A program made the translations under genes and the position numbers. A DNA stretch of 33,676 nt from Candidatus Poseidoniales archaeon. GTDB lineage: Archaea > Thermoplasmatota > Poseidoniia > Poseidoniales > Poseidoniaceae. Positions 2 through 11,382 of this stretch are shown one piece after another. Position 1 is the stretch's first letter. Each line of letters begins with the position of its first letter. Below the pieces are notes generated by a model that was given only the letters and a program-made list of their open reading frames with translations, made no database searches and was not told the origin of the DNA. The stretch is from NCBI GenBank assembly GCA_009887095.1, contig QXYC01000007.1, forward strand, positions 1 through 33,676, read 5' to 3'.

Positions 2-310
2 CGTCTGGTTGGCGAGCACGTGAGCCGAAGATTCTTTTTTGAAAATCAAATTTGGACAGCTGAGGTAGCACTTGGTGCCGGGGCCCTCGATGAAGTGGTT
101 GAAGCAGAAGATCTCATCAACCGATCGATCGAGGTCGCCACAAATTGGAGTCAGTGGGGCAACCATTTCCGAGAAGCGACCAAACATCTTCTCCACGTCC
201 AAACGATGAACGATTTTGAGACGCACCTCAAGCACGAGCAAACACTGATTGAGGCTGCAGGAACGACGCCTGAATTCAAAGAAGGTGTCTCAAAATTCCT
301 GGGGAATTAG
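2..310 (+). CDS. Enoyl-CoA hydratase/isomerase (crotonase) family protein, C-terminal part
   Basis: The reading frame is open from the window edge, so this is only the last 102 or so residues of a gene that starts outside. The tail has the look of the C-terminal trimerisation helices of crotonases: a segment reading GALDEVVEAEDL, then a helical stretch, then EFKEGVSKFLGN, which matches the family's usual closing pattern of an acidic helix, EGV and a phenylalanine. The catalytic half is not in the window, so the exact substrate cannot be told. A GTG at 20 could be mistaken for a start, but the frame continues upstream of it. It converges on the next gene with only 30 bases between stops. A second, complete crotonase lies at 10516. 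Confidence 0.7.
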   Translation, partial: RLVGEHVSRRFFFENQIWTAEVALGAGALDEVVEAEDLINRSIEVATNWSQWGNHFREATKHLLHVQTMNDFETHLKHEQTLIEAAGTTPEFKEGVSKFLGN

Positions 311-2257: not shown

Positions 2258-3136
2258 TCACCATTCAAAGAAACCTTGACCTGATTTCTGACCAAGGTGA
2301 CCCTTGGCCACCATCTCTTCCAACAACGGATGAGGCGCATAGCGATCGTCATTGAACGAACGTTGTAGGTTGAGCAGAATGTCTCGACGGACATCCAATC
2401 CAACAAGATCGGTCAACTTGAGGGGGCCCATTGGGTGCTTGTAGCCAAGCACCATGGCCGTATCGATGTCTTCAGCACTCGCCACACCATCAGCAAGCAT
2501 GCGAATGGCTTCGTTACCAAGGACAACACCAAGGCGGCTTGTGGCAAAACCTGGCACGTCCTTGACAAGAATCGTGGTCTTGCCCATGGCCACACCAGCA
2601 GCTTCTGCGGCTGCGACTGTCGCATCACTGGTTGATTCATGACGAACGAGTTCGAGCAGTTTCATGATTGGAACAGGGTTGAAGAAATGCATGCCGATGA
2701 CCTGTTCAGGCCGGGTGGTGGCTGCAGCGATACCTGCAATCGAAAGCGAGGACGTGTTGGTGCCAAGGATCGCATGAGCCGGGGCCAAGCGGTCAAGATC
2801 AGCAAAGATGCTGTGCTTCAAATCTGGAATTTCGGGAACCGCTTCAATCACCATGTCAGCGTTTCCTACCGCTTCGGCGAGGTCTCCGACAGCGTGGAGT
2901 CGAGCGCCCCATTCTGCCTTTTGCTCAAGGGTCGTTTTGCCACGAGCGATGCCTTTGTCCCAAAACGCGTCGATGCGATCCATGCCACGTTCCAAACCTT
3001 CTGGGAATGCGTCGAACAGATTGGTTTTCCAGCCTGCTTGGGCACAAACTTGCGCAATTCCTGCACCCATGGTTCCTGCACCGATCACGGCAACTTCTCG
3101 AATCTCCATGCCCCATGCGACGGGGCCGAACTTCAT
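2258..3136 (-). CDS. 3-hydroxyacyl-CoA dehydrogenase (3-hydroxybutyryl-CoA dehydrogenase type)
   Basis: It oxidises a 3-hydroxyacyl-CoA to the 3-ketoacyl-CoA with NAD+, a beta-oxidation step. The 292-aa product has the N-terminal Rossmann motif GAGTMGAGIA (19-28), the EAVPE segment, TNTSSLSI, and the signature HFFNPVPIMKLLELV with the catalytic histidine at about 150, followed by the C-terminal dimerisation domain (MGPLKLTDLVGLD). Length matches single-domain family members. The start was placed at 3136 because that ATG forms an ATGA overlap with the stop of the upstream EamA gene. An internal Met at 3109 is also possible, while the frame further upstream overlaps the EamA gene and is spurious. 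It is last in the oxygenase operon, so its substrate may be a ring-opened hydroxyacyl-CoA. Confidence 0.9.
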   Translation of the reverse strand: MKFGPVAWGMEIREVAVIGAGTMGAGIAQVCAQAGWKTNLFDAFPEGLERGMDRIDAFWDKGIARGKTTLEQKAEWGARLHAVGDLAEAVGNADMVIEAVPEIPDLKHSIFADLDRLAPAHAILGTNTSSLSIAGIAAATTRPEQVIGMHFFNPVPIMKLLELVRHESTSDATVAAAEAAGVAMGKTTILVKDVPGFATSRLGVVLGNEAIRMLADGVASAEDIDTAMVLGYKHPMGPLKLTDLVGLDVRRDILLNLQRSFNDDRYAPHPLLEEMVAKGHLGQKSGQGFFEW

Positions 3137-4056
3137 GATGCTTCCTCGACCGCCGCCTTCTGGCTTTGAGCCAACCACACGCCACCAACGATGAGGACAA
3201 ACGAAAGCAAAAGTGGAACCCCGAGTTTTTCGTCCAACAGCAGCCATCCGCTGAAGATGCCAAATGGAGGTACGAGGTAGACATACAAGGCTGCTTTTCC
3301 AGCGCCAATGGTTCGGATTCCATCAGCAAACCAAACATACGAGATAACCGTGGAGAACACCGCCAAAAACACAAGAGAAATCCAACCCTCTGTGTTCGAA
3401 TCTGGTACGCCAACGCTCAGTGTTTCGACCACTGCCGGAGGCGTCAGCAGGATGAGCCCCGCCACAGAGGACCACACGGTCAAGTGAAGCGGTGACAGGG
3501 TCGCTTTCGCATCAGGTGCGGGGGTGTTCATGGCGCGTTTCATCAGAATGTTATTGCAAGCCCAAGCAAATGCTGCTGCAGCGATTAGCAAATCACCAAG
3601 GGCACGTTCGGCAATTGGAATATCGACATTCGGAGAATAGAGGAACAGGATTGTTACCCCGATGATTCCCAAGGCCAGTCCTGTTGCCAGTCGCCAATGC
3701 AGGCGCTCGTTTAGGAACACAATAGCAAGAAGGGCCGTGAAGAACGGATTGAAGGTGATCATGAGGGAGGCATCGCCTGCTGCTGTGTACTTCATTCCGT
3801 AGAGGAAGAAGGCTTGGTAGACAACTGTTGAGAAAAAGCCAATCATTGCTACGCGCTTCCATTCACCTCTTGTTGGGAAAAGCCAGTTATCGGTGGCTTG
3901 GAGGTACAACGCAAAACAGCCGATAGCGACAACGTACCGAATCCATGCTGCTGTAAATGGTGCCATTTGGTCGGCTAAGACCCGTCCTGCGGGCCAACCA
4001 AACCCCCAAACGGCGGCGACAAGTACGAGTTTAAGATGAACTTTCCAATGGTTCAT
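3133..4056 (-). CDS. EamA/DMT family transporter
   Basis: A 307-aa integral membrane protein with about ten hydrophobic helices arranged as two EamA repeats. The first runs from LVLVAAVWGFGWPAGRVLAD to FLYSPN. The second begins at LGDLLIAAAAFAWACNNILM and includes GAGKAALYVYLVPPFGI, the common LxPV-like segment of this family. Such proteins usually export small metabolites or amino acids. It overlaps both neighbours by ATGA (start with the 183-aa gene, stop with the dehydrogenase gene), so the three are translationally coupled. This links it to the same pathway, perhaps exporting or importing a pathway compound. The substrate cannot be told from sequence. Confidence 0.88.
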   Translation of the reverse strand: MNHWKVHLKLVLVAAVWGFGWPAGRVLADQMAPFTAAWIRYVVAIGCFALYLQATDNWLFPTRGEWKRVAMIGFFSTVVYQAFFLYGMKYTAAGDASLMITFNPFFTALLAIVFLNERLHWRLATGLALGIIGVTILFLYSPNVDIPIAERALGDLLIAAAAFAWACNNILMKRAMNTPAPDAKATLSPLHLTVWSSVAGLILLTPPAVVETLSVGVPDSNTEGWISLVFLAVFSTVISYVWFADGIRTIGAGKAALYVYLVPPFGIFSGWLLLDEKLGVPLLLSFVLIVGGVWLAQSQKAAVEEAS

Positions 4057-4604
4057 TCAAACCGCTCCAAACCGAGTTGGAGCATGCGAGATCGGGGCAA
4101 ACCAATCTCTGGTAAGCCGGCTGCTGGAGCGTACTTCTTCAGCCCTTCTAAACGTGACACATAGAGCCCGTAGGAGGCAATGTCGTCCGGCAAATAGGGA
4201 GTTGGAACGCCCATTCGAGTAAGGGTTGCGCATGCTGCTTCAGAATAGATGGGGAAGAGGTTGGTGCTAAAATGCATCCATTCAGAAACACGCTGTGCAT
4301 CAATGTTGTCGAGTGTCAACAGGTGTTCGAGCATTGAAACGTCGGGGTATGTGGTGGTTCGAAGGGTCATTTCGACTTCATTGGTGATGTCTTCGGGCCA
4401 CGCAAACGGTTGGTGATTCGACCATTGATCGGCGATTCGAATGTGTTCGAGCGACGCTTCCGTTTCGATTGAGAATAATGCTTTAGCGTAATTTTCGTCG
4501 TCCACGCTGTCAGCAACCAAGGTCGGCAACGCCTCGTAAAAGGCTTCACAGAGTTCAACGTTTACACCGTACAGTGCAACTGGTATCATGTGATTCCACT
4601 CCAT
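4053..4604 (-). CDS. Hypothetical protein of the oxygenase operon
   Basis: A 183-aa soluble, acidic protein that is not recognised. The N-terminal third is helical (NVELCEAFYEALPTLVAD) and contains SIETEASLEHIRIAD, whose Glu and His spacing faintly recalls a ferritin-like helix. No second matching helix was found, so a di-iron site is not claimed. It starts six bases after the stop of the BoxB/PaaA-like gene and its stop overlaps the EamA start by ATGA. This constant tight packing suggests that it works with the oxygenase, for example as an accessory or structural subunit in the way PaaC supports PaaA. That role is inference from position only. An alternative start is the Met at 4589. Confidence 0.6.
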   Translation of the reverse strand: MEWNHMIPVALYGVNVELCEAFYEALPTLVADSVDDENYAKALFSIETEASLEHIRIADQWSNHQPFAWPEDITNEVEMTLRTTTYPDVSMLEHLLTLDNIDAQRVSEWMHFSTNLFPIYSEAACATLTRMGVPTPYLPDDIASYGLYVSRLEGLKKYAPAAGLPEIGLPRSRMLQLGLERFE

Positions 4605-4610
4605 TTAAGC

Positions 4611-5771
4611 TCAGGCCTTGGCGCCAATACCGGAAGCGATTTGGCGCGCTGACATTGGCTTGTTTGCAACCCAATCTTGCTTGAAGAGTTCCTTGAGGTC
4701 TTCCTCATCTTGAGCACTTGGCAGAACAGTTCCAAGGTAGGCTTGATACTCATCTTCTGAGCCTTCAAACACATCACCCTCGAGTGTGCAATTGACCTTC
4801 TTGAAGGCGCCAATGTCTCGGTGGAAATTTTCGTGAGGCACAAAGAGTTGGGGAGCACCTTCAGGGAGGTAGCCGTTGAGTTTCTGGACTTCTCCGACAA
4901 TCTCTGCATGGTAGTGGCCACGTGCTTCTTCGTTGAGAACTTCCTTGTCGACTTCAACACCAGCTTCGAGTTTCTTGCGTTCGTCCCATCGGCCTTTCAC
5001 GCCCCAAACATAGGACCAGTGTGCAGATGAAGATGCATCAACGCCAAACAGATCGTGAGCGGTTGAAACCCACTTGTTGATGTAGCGTTGGAGCATATCA
5101 AGTGGGATTACTCCGGCTTTGATGACTCGGCGCAATCCGTTTGAACCGGTTCCAAGGTGGAAGGATTCTTCCTTGAGCATTGGTCCCATCGATGCAGCCA
5201 ACGGCTTGAACGCAGAGGTAGAGAGCATGCCCAACTGGAACTTACCATCTCGGTCAACAAACATGGTGTAGCAGAAGAAATCGAGCCAGTGCGGCATTGG
5301 GCGGTTGAACGCACCGAGCAAGCGGTCGCCGTCCTGAGCATTGCGCTCGAGGAGTTTTTGCGCTTCACGTCGCCCTTGTTGTCCAAAGTAAGTCATGAGA
5401 AGGTGTGCCATTTGCCATCCGTGGCGTTGCTCCTCGGCCATGATGCGTGCTGCAGCGTATCGGTCATAGTCGGTTGGAGCGCTGGCGAGCAAGTGGCGTT
5501 GTTGCTCCACGGACGCGAATTCAGTATCGCCTTGAACGGTGATCATTGCAACGAGCGCATCTCGCATGCTTTGGTGAGGTACTTGGAGGGAGCGCTCCCA
5601 CTTTGGACGTCCTGCGTAGTCTCCGAACTCAATCAAATCGCCTGCTCGGTCCCAATCATACTGAACAGATAGGTCAAAGTCGCCCATCCATTCTCTGTTA
5701 AAGCCGACGCGGTCTTGCCATTCGCCGAAGTTTGCAATCCAGTCTTCCCATGTGTTCGGTAGGTTGTCCAT
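4611..5771 (-). CDS. BoxB/PaaA-family di-iron acyl-CoA epoxidase (oxygenase component)
   Basis: A 386-aa ferritin-like protein related to benzoyl-CoA epoxidase BoxB and, more distantly, phenylacetyl-CoA epoxidase PaaA. These use O2 to epoxidise the ring of an aromatic CoA thioester. Visible ligands fit a carboxylate-bridged di-iron site: Glu84 (GDTEFASVEQQRH), Glu114 and His117 (AEEQRHGW), Asp173 or Asp175 (VDRDGK), and Glu202 with His205 (KEESFHLGTG). The two ExxH helices and the 30-residue Glu84 to Glu114 spacing match BoxB as I recall it. A reductase partner (BoxA or PaaE type) is not in the window. Its own TATA-like box and a tandem repeat lie just upstream. The family is fairly sure; the actual substrate is not. 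Confidence 0.8.
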   Translation of the reverse strand: MDNLPNTWEDWIANFGEWQDRVGFNREWMGDFDLSVQYDWDRAGDLIEFGDYAGRPKWERSLQVPHQSMRDALVAMITVQGDTEFASVEQQRHLLASAPTDYDRYAAARIMAEEQRHGWQMAHLLMTYFGQQGRREAQKLLERNAQDGDRLLGAFNRPMPHWLDFFCYTMFVDRDGKFQLGMLSTSAFKPLAASMGPMLKEESFHLGTGSNGLRRVIKAGVIPLDMLQRYINKWVSTAHDLFGVDASSSAHWSYVWGVKGRWDERKKLEAGVEVDKEVLNEEARGHYHAEIVGEVQKLNGYLPEGAPQLFVPHENFHRDIGAFKKVNCTLEGDVFEGSEDEYQAYLGTVLPSAQDEEDLKELFKQDWVANKPMSARQIASGIGAKA

Positions 5772-5790
5772 GTGTTTGCCTTAACGCCGC

Positions 5791-5801
5791 CTACCTTATT
5801 G
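5791..5801 (-). promoter_or_regulatory. TATA-like element of the oxygenase gene
   Basis: On the minus strand CAATAAGGTAG is centred about 25 bases before the ATG at 5771, so the transcript may be leaderless. The same AATAAGGTAG core precedes the gene starting at 898. The tandem repeat at 5806-5832 abuts it on the upstream side. Confidence 0.45.
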
Positions 5802-5805
5802 CCTT

Positions 5806-5832
5806 TGCGAACATGTTCGTGCGAACATGTTA
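5806..5832. promoter_or_regulatory. Tandem palindromic repeat, probable activator site upstream of the oxygenase gene
   Basis: The 12-base string TGCGAACATGTT occurs at 5806-5817 and again, identically, at 5820-5831, a 14-base period. The first copy extends to the perfect palindrome CGAACATGTTCG (5808-5819). The pair lies directly upstream of the TATA-like element of the oxygenase gene and its far end overlaps the stop codon of the HTH_10 regulator gene. Bat-type regulators are known to bind just upstream of the TATA box, so this is a natural site for the neighbouring regulator. The pairing is inference. Confidence 0.6.
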
Positions 5833-6456
5833 GGGGCTTCGTTTGCGCACTTCGTCTGCAAACGCATGCATGATTGTTGATTCGATCCGTTGTAGTTGAG
5901 CGGATAAAGTCGATTTTGCAACGTCCAACTTAGCCGCAAGGGCTGTCAGTGTCACACGTCGAGGCACGTCGTAGAATCCTTCTTGTGTGGCTGTATCAAA
6001 CACCAAGCGTTGCCTGGGCGTGAGCATTCTTGATGAGACACCCCGAGTCGACAACAATCGATATGGAATGCGCTCGTCATCGAAGCCCGCGATGAGATCA
6101 CGCACTTTTCCTTGAGCGCAAGCAATTGTCCAATCAACCCAACCGTCTCGGACTTCAAACGGAGTGTGTGGAATCACGCCAACCCTTAGCAACGGTTTGA
6201 GGAAACCACCTCCACCTGCAATAATGTCGACAGCAAATTGCTGTGAACCAAAAGATCGAACCTCTTCAATTCCCGGATGTTCGCCCACAGTGATGGTAAT
6301 GTCTTCACTGCATGATGCTTTCGCCGTACCACGGCCTTTCATCAAAGGCATGTGTTCCTCAATCCGTAAGATGGCTGAAGGATGGCTCCGAGTCACATCC
6401 CCTGCCCAGTGCCCTTCAGGCAACCGAACTTCGATGCGGACCTGTTGGACGCCCAT
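5830..6456 (-). CDS. Bat-type HTH_10 transcriptional regulator
   Basis: A 208-aa protein whose last 60 residues are the HTH_10 (bacterio-opsin activator) DNA-binding domain: LTPRQRLVFDTATQEGFYDV followed by PRRVTL, LAAKLDVAKSTLSAQLQRIE (about 145-192). The N-terminal part (1-130) looks like the sensory half of short haloarchaeal-type Bat regulators, with no recognised cofactor motif. It lies immediately before the BoxB/PaaA-like operon on the same strand. The tandem palindrome between the two genes sits where an activator of the oxygenase promoter would bind. It has its own TATA-like element about 25 bases before the start, so regulator and oxygenase can be transcribed separately. The effector may be an aromatic acid or its CoA ester, but nothing in the sequence proves this. 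Confidence 0.85.
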   Translation of the reverse strand: MGVQQVRIEVRLPEGHWAGDVTRSHPSAILRIEEHMPLMKGRGTAKASCSEDITITVGEHPGIEEVRSFGSQQFAVDIIAGGGGFLKPLLRVGVIPHTPFEVRDGWVDWTIACAQGKVRDLIAGFDDERIPYRLLSTRGVSSRMLTPRQRLVFDTATQEGFYDVPRRVTLTALAAKLDVAKSTLSAQLQRIESTIMHAFADEVRKRSP

Positions 6457-9208: not shown

Positions 9209-10492
9209 ATGGGGTTACCCATGGGCGACGAGGCGGCTATCCACATCATGGGGGCTGGCCTCTCCGGCCTTGCCGCCGCCACCCTTCTTGCGAGGGCTGG
9301 AAAGGAAGTGCATGTCCACGACGTGCGGGCAGATTCAGGTGCACGGTTTGACGGTGATTTCCAAGCCTTAGAAAATTGGAGCATGGACGAAGATTTCTTC
9401 GACCAATTGAAGGAATGGGGCTTTGATGCATCTGAATTCAAGGCAACCGAATTCGACGTCGTCGACCTCATCCACCCAGATGACAAAATTACGCAAGCCA
9501 CCACCTCGAAAGTGGCTTACAGAATTGTCGAACGGGGTACATCGGAGCATACCATCGATCAAGGCTTCAAACGCCAAGCACTCGCTGCGGGAGCAAAAAT
9601 CCACTACAAATCACGTGTGAAGGAAGAGGATTGCACGATCATCGCATGTGGGCCAAAAGGAACTTCTGCCGTCGCTTATGGGGAAATATTCCACACCGAC
9701 CATCCAAATCACATCGGGTTCCAGCTCAACGACCACCTTGCCCCAGGCTCATACTCATACCTCATCATCATCGATGGTGTTGGGCTTATTTGCACATGCC
9801 TTTGGCGAAAGCAGAAGAAAAGTGAACGATTCCTTAACGAGACCATTGCCTGGTATGAGGCGCACTATCCGAACCTAAACCGCACGCCAATCAAGCGCGT
9901 TGGGGGCAAGGGAGACTTCACGATCAATCGGAATTACAAGCAAGACGGTCGTTACTATGTTGGCGAATCAGGCGGGCTTCAAGATTTCATGTGGGGTTTT
10001 GGCATGCGAATGGCCGTATGGTCGGGCGTTCTTGCCGCAAACGACATTCTTGGTAAAGGCGATTATGAAGCGGATGTGAGGAAGTACCTCATGCCCTATG
10101 TCCGCACAAGCGTTGCAAACCGTTGGCTGATGAACCGCGTTGGGGATCGCACCTTCAAGCGAATGTGCAACGCATGGATGAAGGACCAGAAGAAAAAAGG
10201 CGATGGATTGATCTGGATTGGCAACCTCTTCAAACCAAAATGGTACAAGAGTATCCTGTACCGTGTGGTCAGCCCGTTCATGTTGCAAAGCGACCCGAAA
10301 GCAATGGGCAGAGGCGTGCGCCGGATGCCCTTCAGAAAAGCACTCAAGCGCGATGTCTGGGAACAGTCAGAAGCAGCCAAGGCGGTTGGCGCTCAATGGG
10401 ATGCAGCCCGTCGAAAGGGAGGAAAAACCTCATTCGCTGATGATGTTGAAACCCCCAAGGATGAGCAATCCGAGCATGCGATTTCTTCATAA
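9209..10492 (+). CDS. FAD-dependent oxidoreductase, geranylgeranyl-reductase-like
   Basis: A 427-aa flavoprotein with an N-terminal dinucleotide fold, IHIMGAGLSGLAAATLLARA, and an acidic strand end HVHDVRADSGARFDGD. In the middle, PGSYSYLIIIDGVGLI occupies the place where geranylgeranyl reductases have their YxWxFP-like substrate segment. GESGGLQDFMWGFGMRMAVW with SGVLAA corresponds to the second FAD motif. Such enzymes saturate isoprenoid chains of archaeal lipids or related polyprenoids. The C-terminal 130 residues are basic and unusual for the group. The start could be 9209 or 9221 (MGDEAAIHIMG). Its stop overlaps the TATA-like element of the following crotonase gene. The subfamily assignment is moderate only. 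Confidence 0.75.
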   Translation: MGLPMGDEAAIHIMGAGLSGLAAATLLARAGKEVHVHDVRADSGARFDGDFQALENWSMDEDFFDQLKEWGFDASEFKATEFDVVDLIHPDDKITQATTSKVAYRIVERGTSEHTIDQGFKRQALAAGAKIHYKSRVKEEDCTIIACGPKGTSAVAYGEIFHTDHPNHIGFQLNDHLAPGSYSYLIIIDGVGLICTCLWRKQKKSERFLNETIAWYEAHYPNLNRTPIKRVGGKGDFTINRNYKQDGRYYVGESGGLQDFMWGFGMRMAVWSGVLAANDILGKGDYEADVRKYLMPYVRTSVANRWLMNRVGDRTFKRMCNAWMKDQKKKGDGLIWIGNLFKPKWYKSILYRVVSPFMLQSDPKAMGRGVRRMPFRKALKRDVWEQSEAAKAVGAQWDAARRKGGKTSFADDVETPKDEQSEHAISS

Positions 10493-10515: not shown

Positions 10516-11382
10516 ATGGACGACCTACACGGATTGACCCTTGAACCAATGCCTAACCGACTTGTCAACTACGGTGTCACCAACAACGGCATCGCAGTGA
10601 TCGAACTCACCTCAGACTCAGCAGGTGCTCCACTTGAAGGCGCAAACGACCGTTCCCCAAACACCTACACCCACGAAATGATGCGAGACATCGATACTGC
10701 AATCGTCAAGGCACGTTTTGATGACGATGTGACCTGCATTGTGCTCACTGGAAACGGCGCATCCTTCTTCTCCGCAGGCGCTTCGATTCAGATGCTCAAC
10801 AGCGTGACTCCAGGCTTCAAGTACAACTTCTGCCTCCACGCAAACGAAACTCTTTCTCGACTTGAGCAAACTTCCAAACTTGTTGTCTGCGCAATCAATG
10901 GACACGCAGTTGGAGGCGGACTTGAAATCGCTATGGCGGCTGACATTCGAATCGCACGAAAGAACTCCGGCAAGGTCGGACTTCCTGAAATCAACCTTGG
11001 TGTTCTCGCAGGCACCGGTGGTACCGCTCGCTTGACCCGCTTGATTGGGAAGGCAAAAGCGCTCGAGATGATGGTTACAGGCGAACTCATGTCCTTTGAG
11101 GACGCACACGGTTGCAACCTTATCAACCACATTTGGGAAGGATCTGCTGATGACTTCCGCCGAGACATTCTCGACTGGTGTGGACAATTCACCCTACCAA
11201 ACAAGGCTGTCAAAGCCGTTGGAAACATCAAGCGTTCCTGCCAAACCGGTCCTGAAATTCCTTTCGAGTACCACTTGGCCCTTGAGCGTGAATTGCAAGC
11301 ATCCTTGTTCAACAGCAGCGACGCCAAGGAAGGCATCGCAGCATACGTCGAAAAGCGTGTTGCAAACTTCACCGGTCAGTGA
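10516..11382 (+). CDS. Enoyl-CoA hydratase/isomerase family protein
   Basis: A 288-aa crotonase. The two oxyanion-hole segments are visible: GNGASFFSAGASIQML and AINGHAVGGGLEIAMAADIR. The second-shell/catalytic region GLPEINLGVLAGTGGTARL has the glutamate found in true hydratases, and the helical tail ends EGIAAYVEKRVANF as in the family. Expected reaction: addition of water across the 2,3 double bond of an enoyl-CoA, or a related isomerisation. It has a 30-residue N-terminal extension relative to short crotonases (an alternative start is 10549). Together with the dehydrogenase at 2258 and the partial crotonase at the window edge it forms a scattered set of beta-oxidation enzymes near the BoxB/PaaA-like oxygenase. 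Confidence 0.9.
   Translation: MDDLHGLTLEPMPNRLVNYGVTNNGIAVIELTSDSAGAPLEGANDRSPNTYTHEMMRDIDTAIVKARFDDDVTCIVLTGNGASFFSAGASIQMLNSVTPGFKYNFCLHANETLSRLEQTSKLVVCAINGHAVGGGLEIAMAADIRIARKNSGKVGLPEINLGVLAGTGGTARLTRLIGKAKALEMMVTGELMSFEDAHGCNLINHIWEGSADDFRRDILDWCGQFTLPNKAVKAVGNIKRSCQTGPEIPFEYHLALERELQASLFNSSDAKEGIAAYVEKRVANFTGQ

Follow-up and report, generated by a model that had tools for sequence, protein, structure and literature searches.

A BoxB-like Di-Iron Protein in a Likely Reduced Box-Type Module of Marine Group II Archaea

The window analysed here, a stretch of 33,676 nucleotides from a Candidatus Poseidoniales archaeon (assembly GCA_009887095.1, contig QXYC01000007.1, positions 1 to 33,676), belongs to a genome assembly of 1.48 Mb that is 68% complete. 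Between its positions 2258 and 6456, a run of genes behind a regulator gene encodes a protein of 386 amino acids (aa) related to the di-iron oxygenase BoxB. The gene of this protein is a core gene of the class, and the genes that accompany it likely form a reduced Box-type module, with a predicted chemistry of oxygenation and ring opening of an aryl-CoA thioester. Marine Group II (MGII) is uncultured and therefore its growth substrates are still poorly known, according to the literature.

Homology, Phylogeny and Conserved Residues of the BoxB-like Protein

The 386-aa protein matched the Pfam family PaaA_PaaC (3.6e-15) and the NCBIfam model of BoxB, TIGR03225 (9.4e-66, 222.5 bits, below the curated cut-off of 499.1), and it gave 38.1 bits against the PaaA model TIGR02156 (cut-off 280). 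Among PDB profiles, BoxB was matched best (9.7e-54), followed by the Sulfolobus structure 4mud (4.2e-19) and the best PaaA (2e-5). The tree of 40 rows, from which L050 (Ns within the gene), L173, both pieces of L195 and L205 were left out, grouped the archaeal long forms with bacterial BoxB on one branch with support of 100/100, apart from the short archaeal forms and PaaA, in agreement with the BoxB likeness proposed in the initial annotation. Bacterial BoxB may be sister to the archaeal long forms or nested within them, as its long branch of three rows allows either. Foldseek with the weak AlphaFold model of the protein (pLDDT 64.6) retrieved BoxB chains as best PDB matches (2.3e-11). These results support its assignment as a putative di-iron protein of BoxB type, within the BoxB rather than the PaaA group; an identity as PaaA was rejected on the score against TIGR02156, the PDB ranking and the tree grouping.

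Residues Glu84, Glu114, His117, Asp173, Glu202 and His205 were aligned with BoxB Glu120, Glu150, His153, Asp211, Glu240 and His243, the six di-iron ligands given in PMC5489048. They were unvaried in 17/17 family rows and were kept in all 23 archaeal long forms (nine from MGIIa, eight from MGIIb and six others), the labels MGIIa, MGIIb and MGIII for three families being our own inferred ones. Asp173 and Asp175 had both been listed initially; the former is the ligand position, and the latter is conserved but is not a ligand. The six ligands are not discriminating, since PaaA rows keep them too. The benzoyl group is oriented in BoxB by second-shell residues, of which Gln116, Thr119, Ser123, Phe193 and Phe203 were identical in 23/23 long forms; the pocket position Phe206 was occupied by Phe or Tyr.

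Distribution and Gene Partners

A match to PF05138 was present in 191/243 class genomes, 35/38 near-complete genomes and 22/25 genera. A single match was found in nearly every class genome listed, so that the presence of the BoxB-like gene is not a matter of chance. In the phylum sample of 194 genomes used for the co-occurrence counts, 54 carried the long BoxB-like protein, and the five MGIII genomes listed were without the gene.

The neighbouring 183-aa protein had been described as unknown, and this was confirmed: no Pfam or NCBIfam family was assigned (one MGIIb member gave a single match at 0.02), nothing better than E 0.83 was obtained against PDB profiles, and no fold match was significant. 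A likeness to HhH DNA glycosylases (Foldseek E 0.98) was non-significant and was not relied on; a relationship with ferritin-like PaaC was likewise unsupported by the profile and fold searches. The protein was present in 187/236 class genomes and in 53/194 phylum genomes (47 of MGIIa and MGIIb, plus G252, G263, G271, G289, G304 and G314), that is, in 53 of the 54 with a long BoxB-like protein. The exception, G284, gave no match and its contig stops inside the BoxB-like gene; in G314 the 183-aa gene (weak match, 1.3e-9) and the BoxB-like gene lie on separate contigs. No match was found in the remaining 140 phylum genomes, including those with short PaaA-like forms. As most of the 53 genomes form one clade, the independent weight of this co-occurrence comes from the five other families. 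The protein would represent a new family tied to a di-iron oxygenase.

Although the initial annotation had no BoxC homologue in view, the window contains a single-domain crotonase, here named half-BoxC, besides the end of a second crotonase (Table 1). The BoxC profile gave matches in 40/40 genomes searched, none of them over the cut-off (0/40), and in 8/14 controls. In 36/36 MGIIa and MGIIb genomes the best match was a crotonase of ~290 aa, with E values of 1.4e-14 to 5.0e-26, and further crotonases of these genomes reached about 1e-5 to 5e-11. The match in the window (10552-11037, E 3.8e-22) is to the N-terminal part of BoxC. By coordinates, half-BoxC is encoded on the boxB contig, at most about 15 kb away, in 33 of these 36 genomes; it is on another contig in G078 and G081, and no boxB was seen in G009. 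Aligned to the Mycetohabitans BoxC (L179), it keeps Cys111, Glu146 and Glu168, which we take to be the catalytic set of BoxC. Leaving out matches of less than 150 aa, this set was present in 27/27 crotonases with at least 228 bits to the window protein and in 0/21 other crotonases of the same loci. A putative ring-opening crotonase was recovered by the genome search for partners first suggested, which yielded no specific BoxA.

Half-BoxC was also detected (E ≤ 1e-60) in G254, G274, G323, G366 and G387, genomes with short PaaA-like forms, and in G279, G286 and G009. In L177 (4407-5962), as well as in L201 and L202, a short PaaA-like protein is encoded beside a half-BoxC crotonase with the Cys/Glu/Glu set. 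The FC..NET stretch is also shown by the Geobacillus structure 2ppy, but not by four other relatives shown, so that such a two-gene pair of PaaA-like protein and half-BoxC may exist outside Thermoplasmatota. Regarding the second crotonase, PaaG was the top PDB match of its copy in G040, which is followed by an aldehyde dehydrogenase gene; compared with other crotonase models, oxepin-CoA hydrolase (alternative type) scored best, all of them below the cut-off.

The module is present in five other Thermoplasmatota families. In loci outside MGII, located by tblastn, half-BoxC, BoxB-like, 183-aa and 3-hydroxyacyl-CoA dehydrogenase genes occur together in L170, L172 and L175; the last three of them in L171, the BoxB-like and 183-aa genes in L174, and the BoxB-like and half-BoxC genes in L173 and L176. 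The FAD protein P0006 is strongly conserved beside half-BoxC in MGII and gave Rossmann-level matches only. A tblastn search of the non-MGII loci did not detect it close to boxB, and it was rejected as reductase of the oxygenase.

In G304 (L206 12028-20000 and L175 2-2879) the boxB cluster is preceded on the same strand, with a few opposite genes between, by genes for tryptophan 2,3-dioxygenase, a semialdehyde dehydrogenase, a pair of LigB dioxygenases, RidA and arylformamidase; a luciferase-like monooxygenase, asparaginase II and an SDR are also encoded in this run. Tryptophan 2,3-dioxygenase and arylformamidase were over the cut-off in Pfam, with NCBIfam scores below it, and the semialdehyde dehydrogenase scored best as the hydroxymuconic type, below the cut-off. 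This run probably encodes an aerobic catabolism of tryptophan/aminophenol type. A LigB-LigB-RidA trio is also present about 48 kb from boxB in the MGIIb genome G097 (L224 10298-12831); its LigB pair is homologous to that of G304 (58 and 55%), which suggests extradiol ring cleavage in this family.

Upstream Palindrome

The palindrome CGAACATGTTCG, with at most one mismatch, was found 48-49 bases ahead of the start of the BoxB-like gene in 72/72 close-relative loci with readable upstream DNA, as an exact copy in 61 and in two copies in 40; seven further sites were counted in 1.06 Mb. These loci come from the 80 best of 276 matches, which were from Poseidoniales/euryarchaeota, at least 81% identical and with no outgroups, and eight of the 80 were not counted because their upstream DNA was short or contained N. 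The 10-base core of the palindrome was present in 15/15 loci of the genus, including the window (13 exact), and in 5/8 other MGIIa loci; it was absent there from L057, L058 and L059, and from 8/8 MGIIb loci. L058 has one copy of the palindrome farther upstream. Within the window alone, three such sites were observed against 2.1 expected, so that by number a site this short would be unremarkable, and the evidence lies in its fixed place. This conserved element supports the view, taken in the initial annotation, that the run is probably regulated, and the neighbouring HTH_10 protein may bind it.

Proposed Pathway and Alternative Explanations

The best explanation, on balance probable, is a reduced archaeal pathway of Box type acting on an aryl-CoA, with the substrate, the reactions and their order predicted from homology and gene context. 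With O2 and two electrons, the BoxB-like enzyme would convert an aryl-CoA thioester, either benzoyl-CoA or a closely related compound, to its ring epoxide, and half-BoxC would open the epoxide/oxepin hydrolytically to an aldehyde, which the aldehyde dehydrogenase adjoining the second crotonase would oxidise. The open chain would be taken through beta-oxidation by the PaaG-like crotonase and the 3-hydroxyacyl-CoA dehydrogenase. The 183-aa protein would act as a dedicated helper of the oxygenase, in coupling or reductase docking, and the HTH_10 regulator would switch the run through its private palindrome.

This pathway is favoured by the BoxB ligands and pocket, the branch with 100/100 support, the Foldseek matches to BoxB, and the proximity and triad of half-BoxC; by the same genes lying close together in other families and the aromatic context of G304; and by the conserved palindrome. 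To these are added the joint function of BoxB and BoxC in bacteria (PMC4498308) and the presence of boxB among the highly expressed genes of Red Sea euryarchaeal contigs, 97% of the euryarchaeal reads being MG-II (PMC5069720, 2016). A reduced new version of the system, considered from the beginning as one option, is in line with half-BoxC, its Cys/Glu/Glu set and the partner co-occurrence.

Several results weigh against it. The TIGR03225 cut-off was reached in 0/194 phylum genomes; the BoxB side of the tree consists of three bacterial rows on a long branch (2.46), with a risk of long-branch joining; and the AlphaFold model is too poor to test the metal geometry. All six ligand letters are also kept in two PaaC rows, the pocket residue Thr210 is replaced by Val or Ile in 23/23 archaeal long forms, short PaaA-like forms likewise keep 5/7 pocket residues (Phe206, not Phe203), and two PaaA-type rows of Thermoplasmatota retain Gln, Thr and Ser of the pocket. 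Since the short forms and PaaC rows share these features, the ligand and pocket residues fit BoxB chemistry without proving it, and the pocket residues common to the short forms lowered our confidence in this explanation. Half-BoxC, in turn, accompanies the shorter PaaA-like proteins too and occurs in G009, where no boxB was seen.

The searches for partners in 60 genomes also weigh against it. BoxA was over the cut-off in 0/60, its flavoprotein and ferredoxin parts being matched separately and unspecifically: the flavoprotein part was matched in 58/60 genomes, including those of MGIII without boxB, and in 11/14 controls. A CysJ-like flavoprotein, encoded about 14-18 kb from boxB in many MGIIa and MGIIb genomes, was consequently rejected as BoxA, as it is unspecific and also occurs without boxB. 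In G097 the BoxA-model match, about 15 kb from boxB (L226 4744-6582), is by eye a flavodoxin-FNR diflavin reductase. Benzoate-CoA ligase TIGR02262 was over the cut-off in 0/60 genomes, other ligase families not being searched; at E ≤ 1e-20 it was matched in 5/52 MGIIa and MGIIb genomes and in 8/8 of MGIII. At the same threshold PaaK was found in 0/60 genomes and indolepyruvate oxidoreductase in 1/60, that one of MGIII, and a supply of phenylacetyl-CoA by either is unsupported. Pfam and NCBIfam scans of the unit showed no PaaB, PaaC or PaaE gene, no genome search aimed at them having been made.

The same chemistry could act on a different aryl-CoA, such as 2-aminobenzoyl-CoA derived from tryptophan through the kynurenine pathway, as a branch of aromatic amino-acid breakdown. 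The tryptophan 2,3-dioxygenase and arylformamidase of G304, the homologous LigB-LigB-RidA trio of G097, the change of Thr210 and the lack of a benzoate-CoA ligase over the cut-off would agree with it, but the tryptophan context comes from a single genome outside MGII. Neither the tryptophan dioxygenase nor the arylformamidase of G304 had a match (E ≤ 1e-5) within the ~130 kb surrounding boxB of G040 or the 127 kb in G097, the whole genomes not being searched, and this substrate is considered unlikely. A di-iron oxygenase of non-aromatic (fatty or isoprenoid) acyl-CoA, with crotonases and dehydrogenase of ordinary beta-oxidation, is still more improbable. The class-wide core distribution, the FAD protein of undefined type beside half-BoxC, the generic crotonase and dehydrogenase families and the pocket residues common to short forms speak in its favour; however, 5/7 residues of the benzoyl pocket of BoxB are kept, the BoxC-type Cys/Glu/Glu set was restricted to the half-BoxC type among the crotonases compared, and the FAD gene is missing near boxB in the non-MGII loci. 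Detoxification or repair, i.e., removal of stray aryl-CoA instead of carbon nutrition, would explain the private upstream element and the exporter of the unit, but the ring-opening and beta-oxidation genes close by and the reported high expression of boxB make it very improbable.

The reduced Box-type pathway may have a wider meaning. We consider it a tentative and rather doubtful possibility that Thermoplasmatota possess, in addition to the Box and Paa types, a third system for the aerobic opening of rings bound as CoA thioesters. In it, a short BoxB-like oxygenase would depend on a dedicated helper of ~180 aa from a new family and on a one-domain opener; it would possibly be ancestral to BoxB/BoxC and would serve archaea abundant in the surface ocean as a core route of carbon. 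For MGII, a ring-opening module that is core and has an upstream element of its own would point to a specific substrate class, aryl-CoA, and would make MGII, after Halobacteria, the second large group of archaea in which rings are broken down aerobically as CoA derivatives.

Contrary to the initial supposition, such enzymes are not new to euryarchaea: PaaA is already annotated in Halobacteria, so that the family extends beyond bacteria, and boxB of MG-II was named in 2016. In a literature search that excluded subscription papers and preprints, PMC5069720 was the only paper found naming boxB in MG-II, and no mention of half-BoxC, the 183-aa partner or the operator was found. PMC6336850, PMC6461757 and PMC9723583, on MGII genomes and transcription, gave no mention of this route under aromatic, benzo-, phenyl- or oxygenase. 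Poseidoniales have been included among the archaea with enzymes leading from catechol to the TCA cycle (PMC9535955).

Features of the Window

The features are detailed in Table 1. The five open reading frames, all on the minus strand and including the Bat-type regulator gene ahead, and their tight packing were confirmed as first described: the gap between the BoxB-like and 183-aa genes is of 6 bases, the next two junctions (183-aa/exporter and exporter/dehydrogenase) are 4-base overlaps, and 58 bases separate the end of the regulator gene from the BoxB-like start. The EamA-type exporter is outside the conserved core of the module, since it was found at this position in 10/11 MGIIa loci (L057 is the exception) but in 0/8 of MGIIb. 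The dehydrogenase gene was present in 18/18 anchored neighbourhoods and in 4/7 non-MGII loci carrying the long BoxB-like gene. L054 was not anchored, though its boxB was counted in the class survey; L062 and L064 (10-base stubs) were left out of the counts, and in GC-rich loci the genes were located by tblastn and a codon-usage caller instead of the longest open reading frame. For a 412-aa gene (1013-2251), convergent with the run and just downstream of it, none of the other neighbourhoods compared had an equivalent.

Table 1. Features of the window related to the BoxB-like gene.
Feature	Position	Strand	Basis
HTH_10 (Bat-type) regulator, 208 aa	5830-6456	-	Pfam PF04967, 5e-16
Operator-like double palindrome	5808-5833	.	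CGAACATGTTCG at 5808-5819, one-mismatch copy at 5822-5833
Putative BoxB-like di-iron oxygenase P0001, 386 aa, short compared with bacterial BoxB	4611-5771	-	BoxB homology, ligands, pocket residues
Helical partner protein P0002, 183 aa	4053-4604	-	No family or significant fold match; co-occurrence
EamA-type (DMT) exporter, accessory	3133-4056	-	Pfam/NCBIfam; position in relatives
3-Hydroxyacyl-CoA dehydrogenase, 292 aa from ATG at 3136	2258-3136	-	Pfam/NCBIfam; neighbourhoods
Half-BoxC, single-domain crotonase, 288 aa	10516-11382	+	BoxC Cys/Glu/Glu set
FAD-type oxidoreductase P0006, 427 aa, adjoining half-BoxC in MGII loci	9209-10492	+	Neighbourhood comparison
3' end of second crotonase, PaaG/oxepin-CoA-hydrolase-like	2-310	+	Cut by contig start

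Comparison with Known Systems

The bacterial Box pathway consists of BoxA, BoxB and BoxC, with a benzoyl-CoA 2,3-epoxidase and a 2,3-epoxybenzoyl-CoA dihydrolase; its reductase BoxA carries two 4Fe-4S clusters and FAD, and benzoyl-CoA is epoxidised with dependence on O2 and NADPH. The archaeal module resembles it in a homologous oxygenase (37-43% to the L179 BoxB) with the six ligands and most pocket residues, in a crotonase partner with Cys111/Glu146/Glu168, and in having the oxygenase and ring-opening genes near one another. It differs in the length of the oxygenase, about 370-390 aa in contrast to about 475 in bacterial BoxB, and in the replacement of its Thr210; in BoxC, reduced to the N-terminal crotonase domain; in having no BoxA over the cut-off in the 60 genomes; and in the extra 183-aa protein and the HTH_10 gene alongside.

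With the PaaABCDE system of bacteria and Halobacteria the module shares the PaaA_PaaC superfamily and a PaaG-like second crotonase, but it forms a separate tree group and was not accompanied by PaaK in any of the 60 genomes; three of the five PaaA rows differ at 6/7 pocket residues, and the remaining two, which are Thermoplasmatota rows, retain a further three. The short archaeal PaaA-like proteins (Sulfolobus SSO1313, PDB 4mud, and the short forms of Thermoplasmatota) are alike in their di-iron ligands and 5/7 pocket residues, and they too have a half-BoxC crotonase as partner in L177, L201 and L202. They are distinguished from the long forms by their size of about 235-285 aa, their own tree group, the lack of a 183-aa partner and the change of Phe203 to Val.

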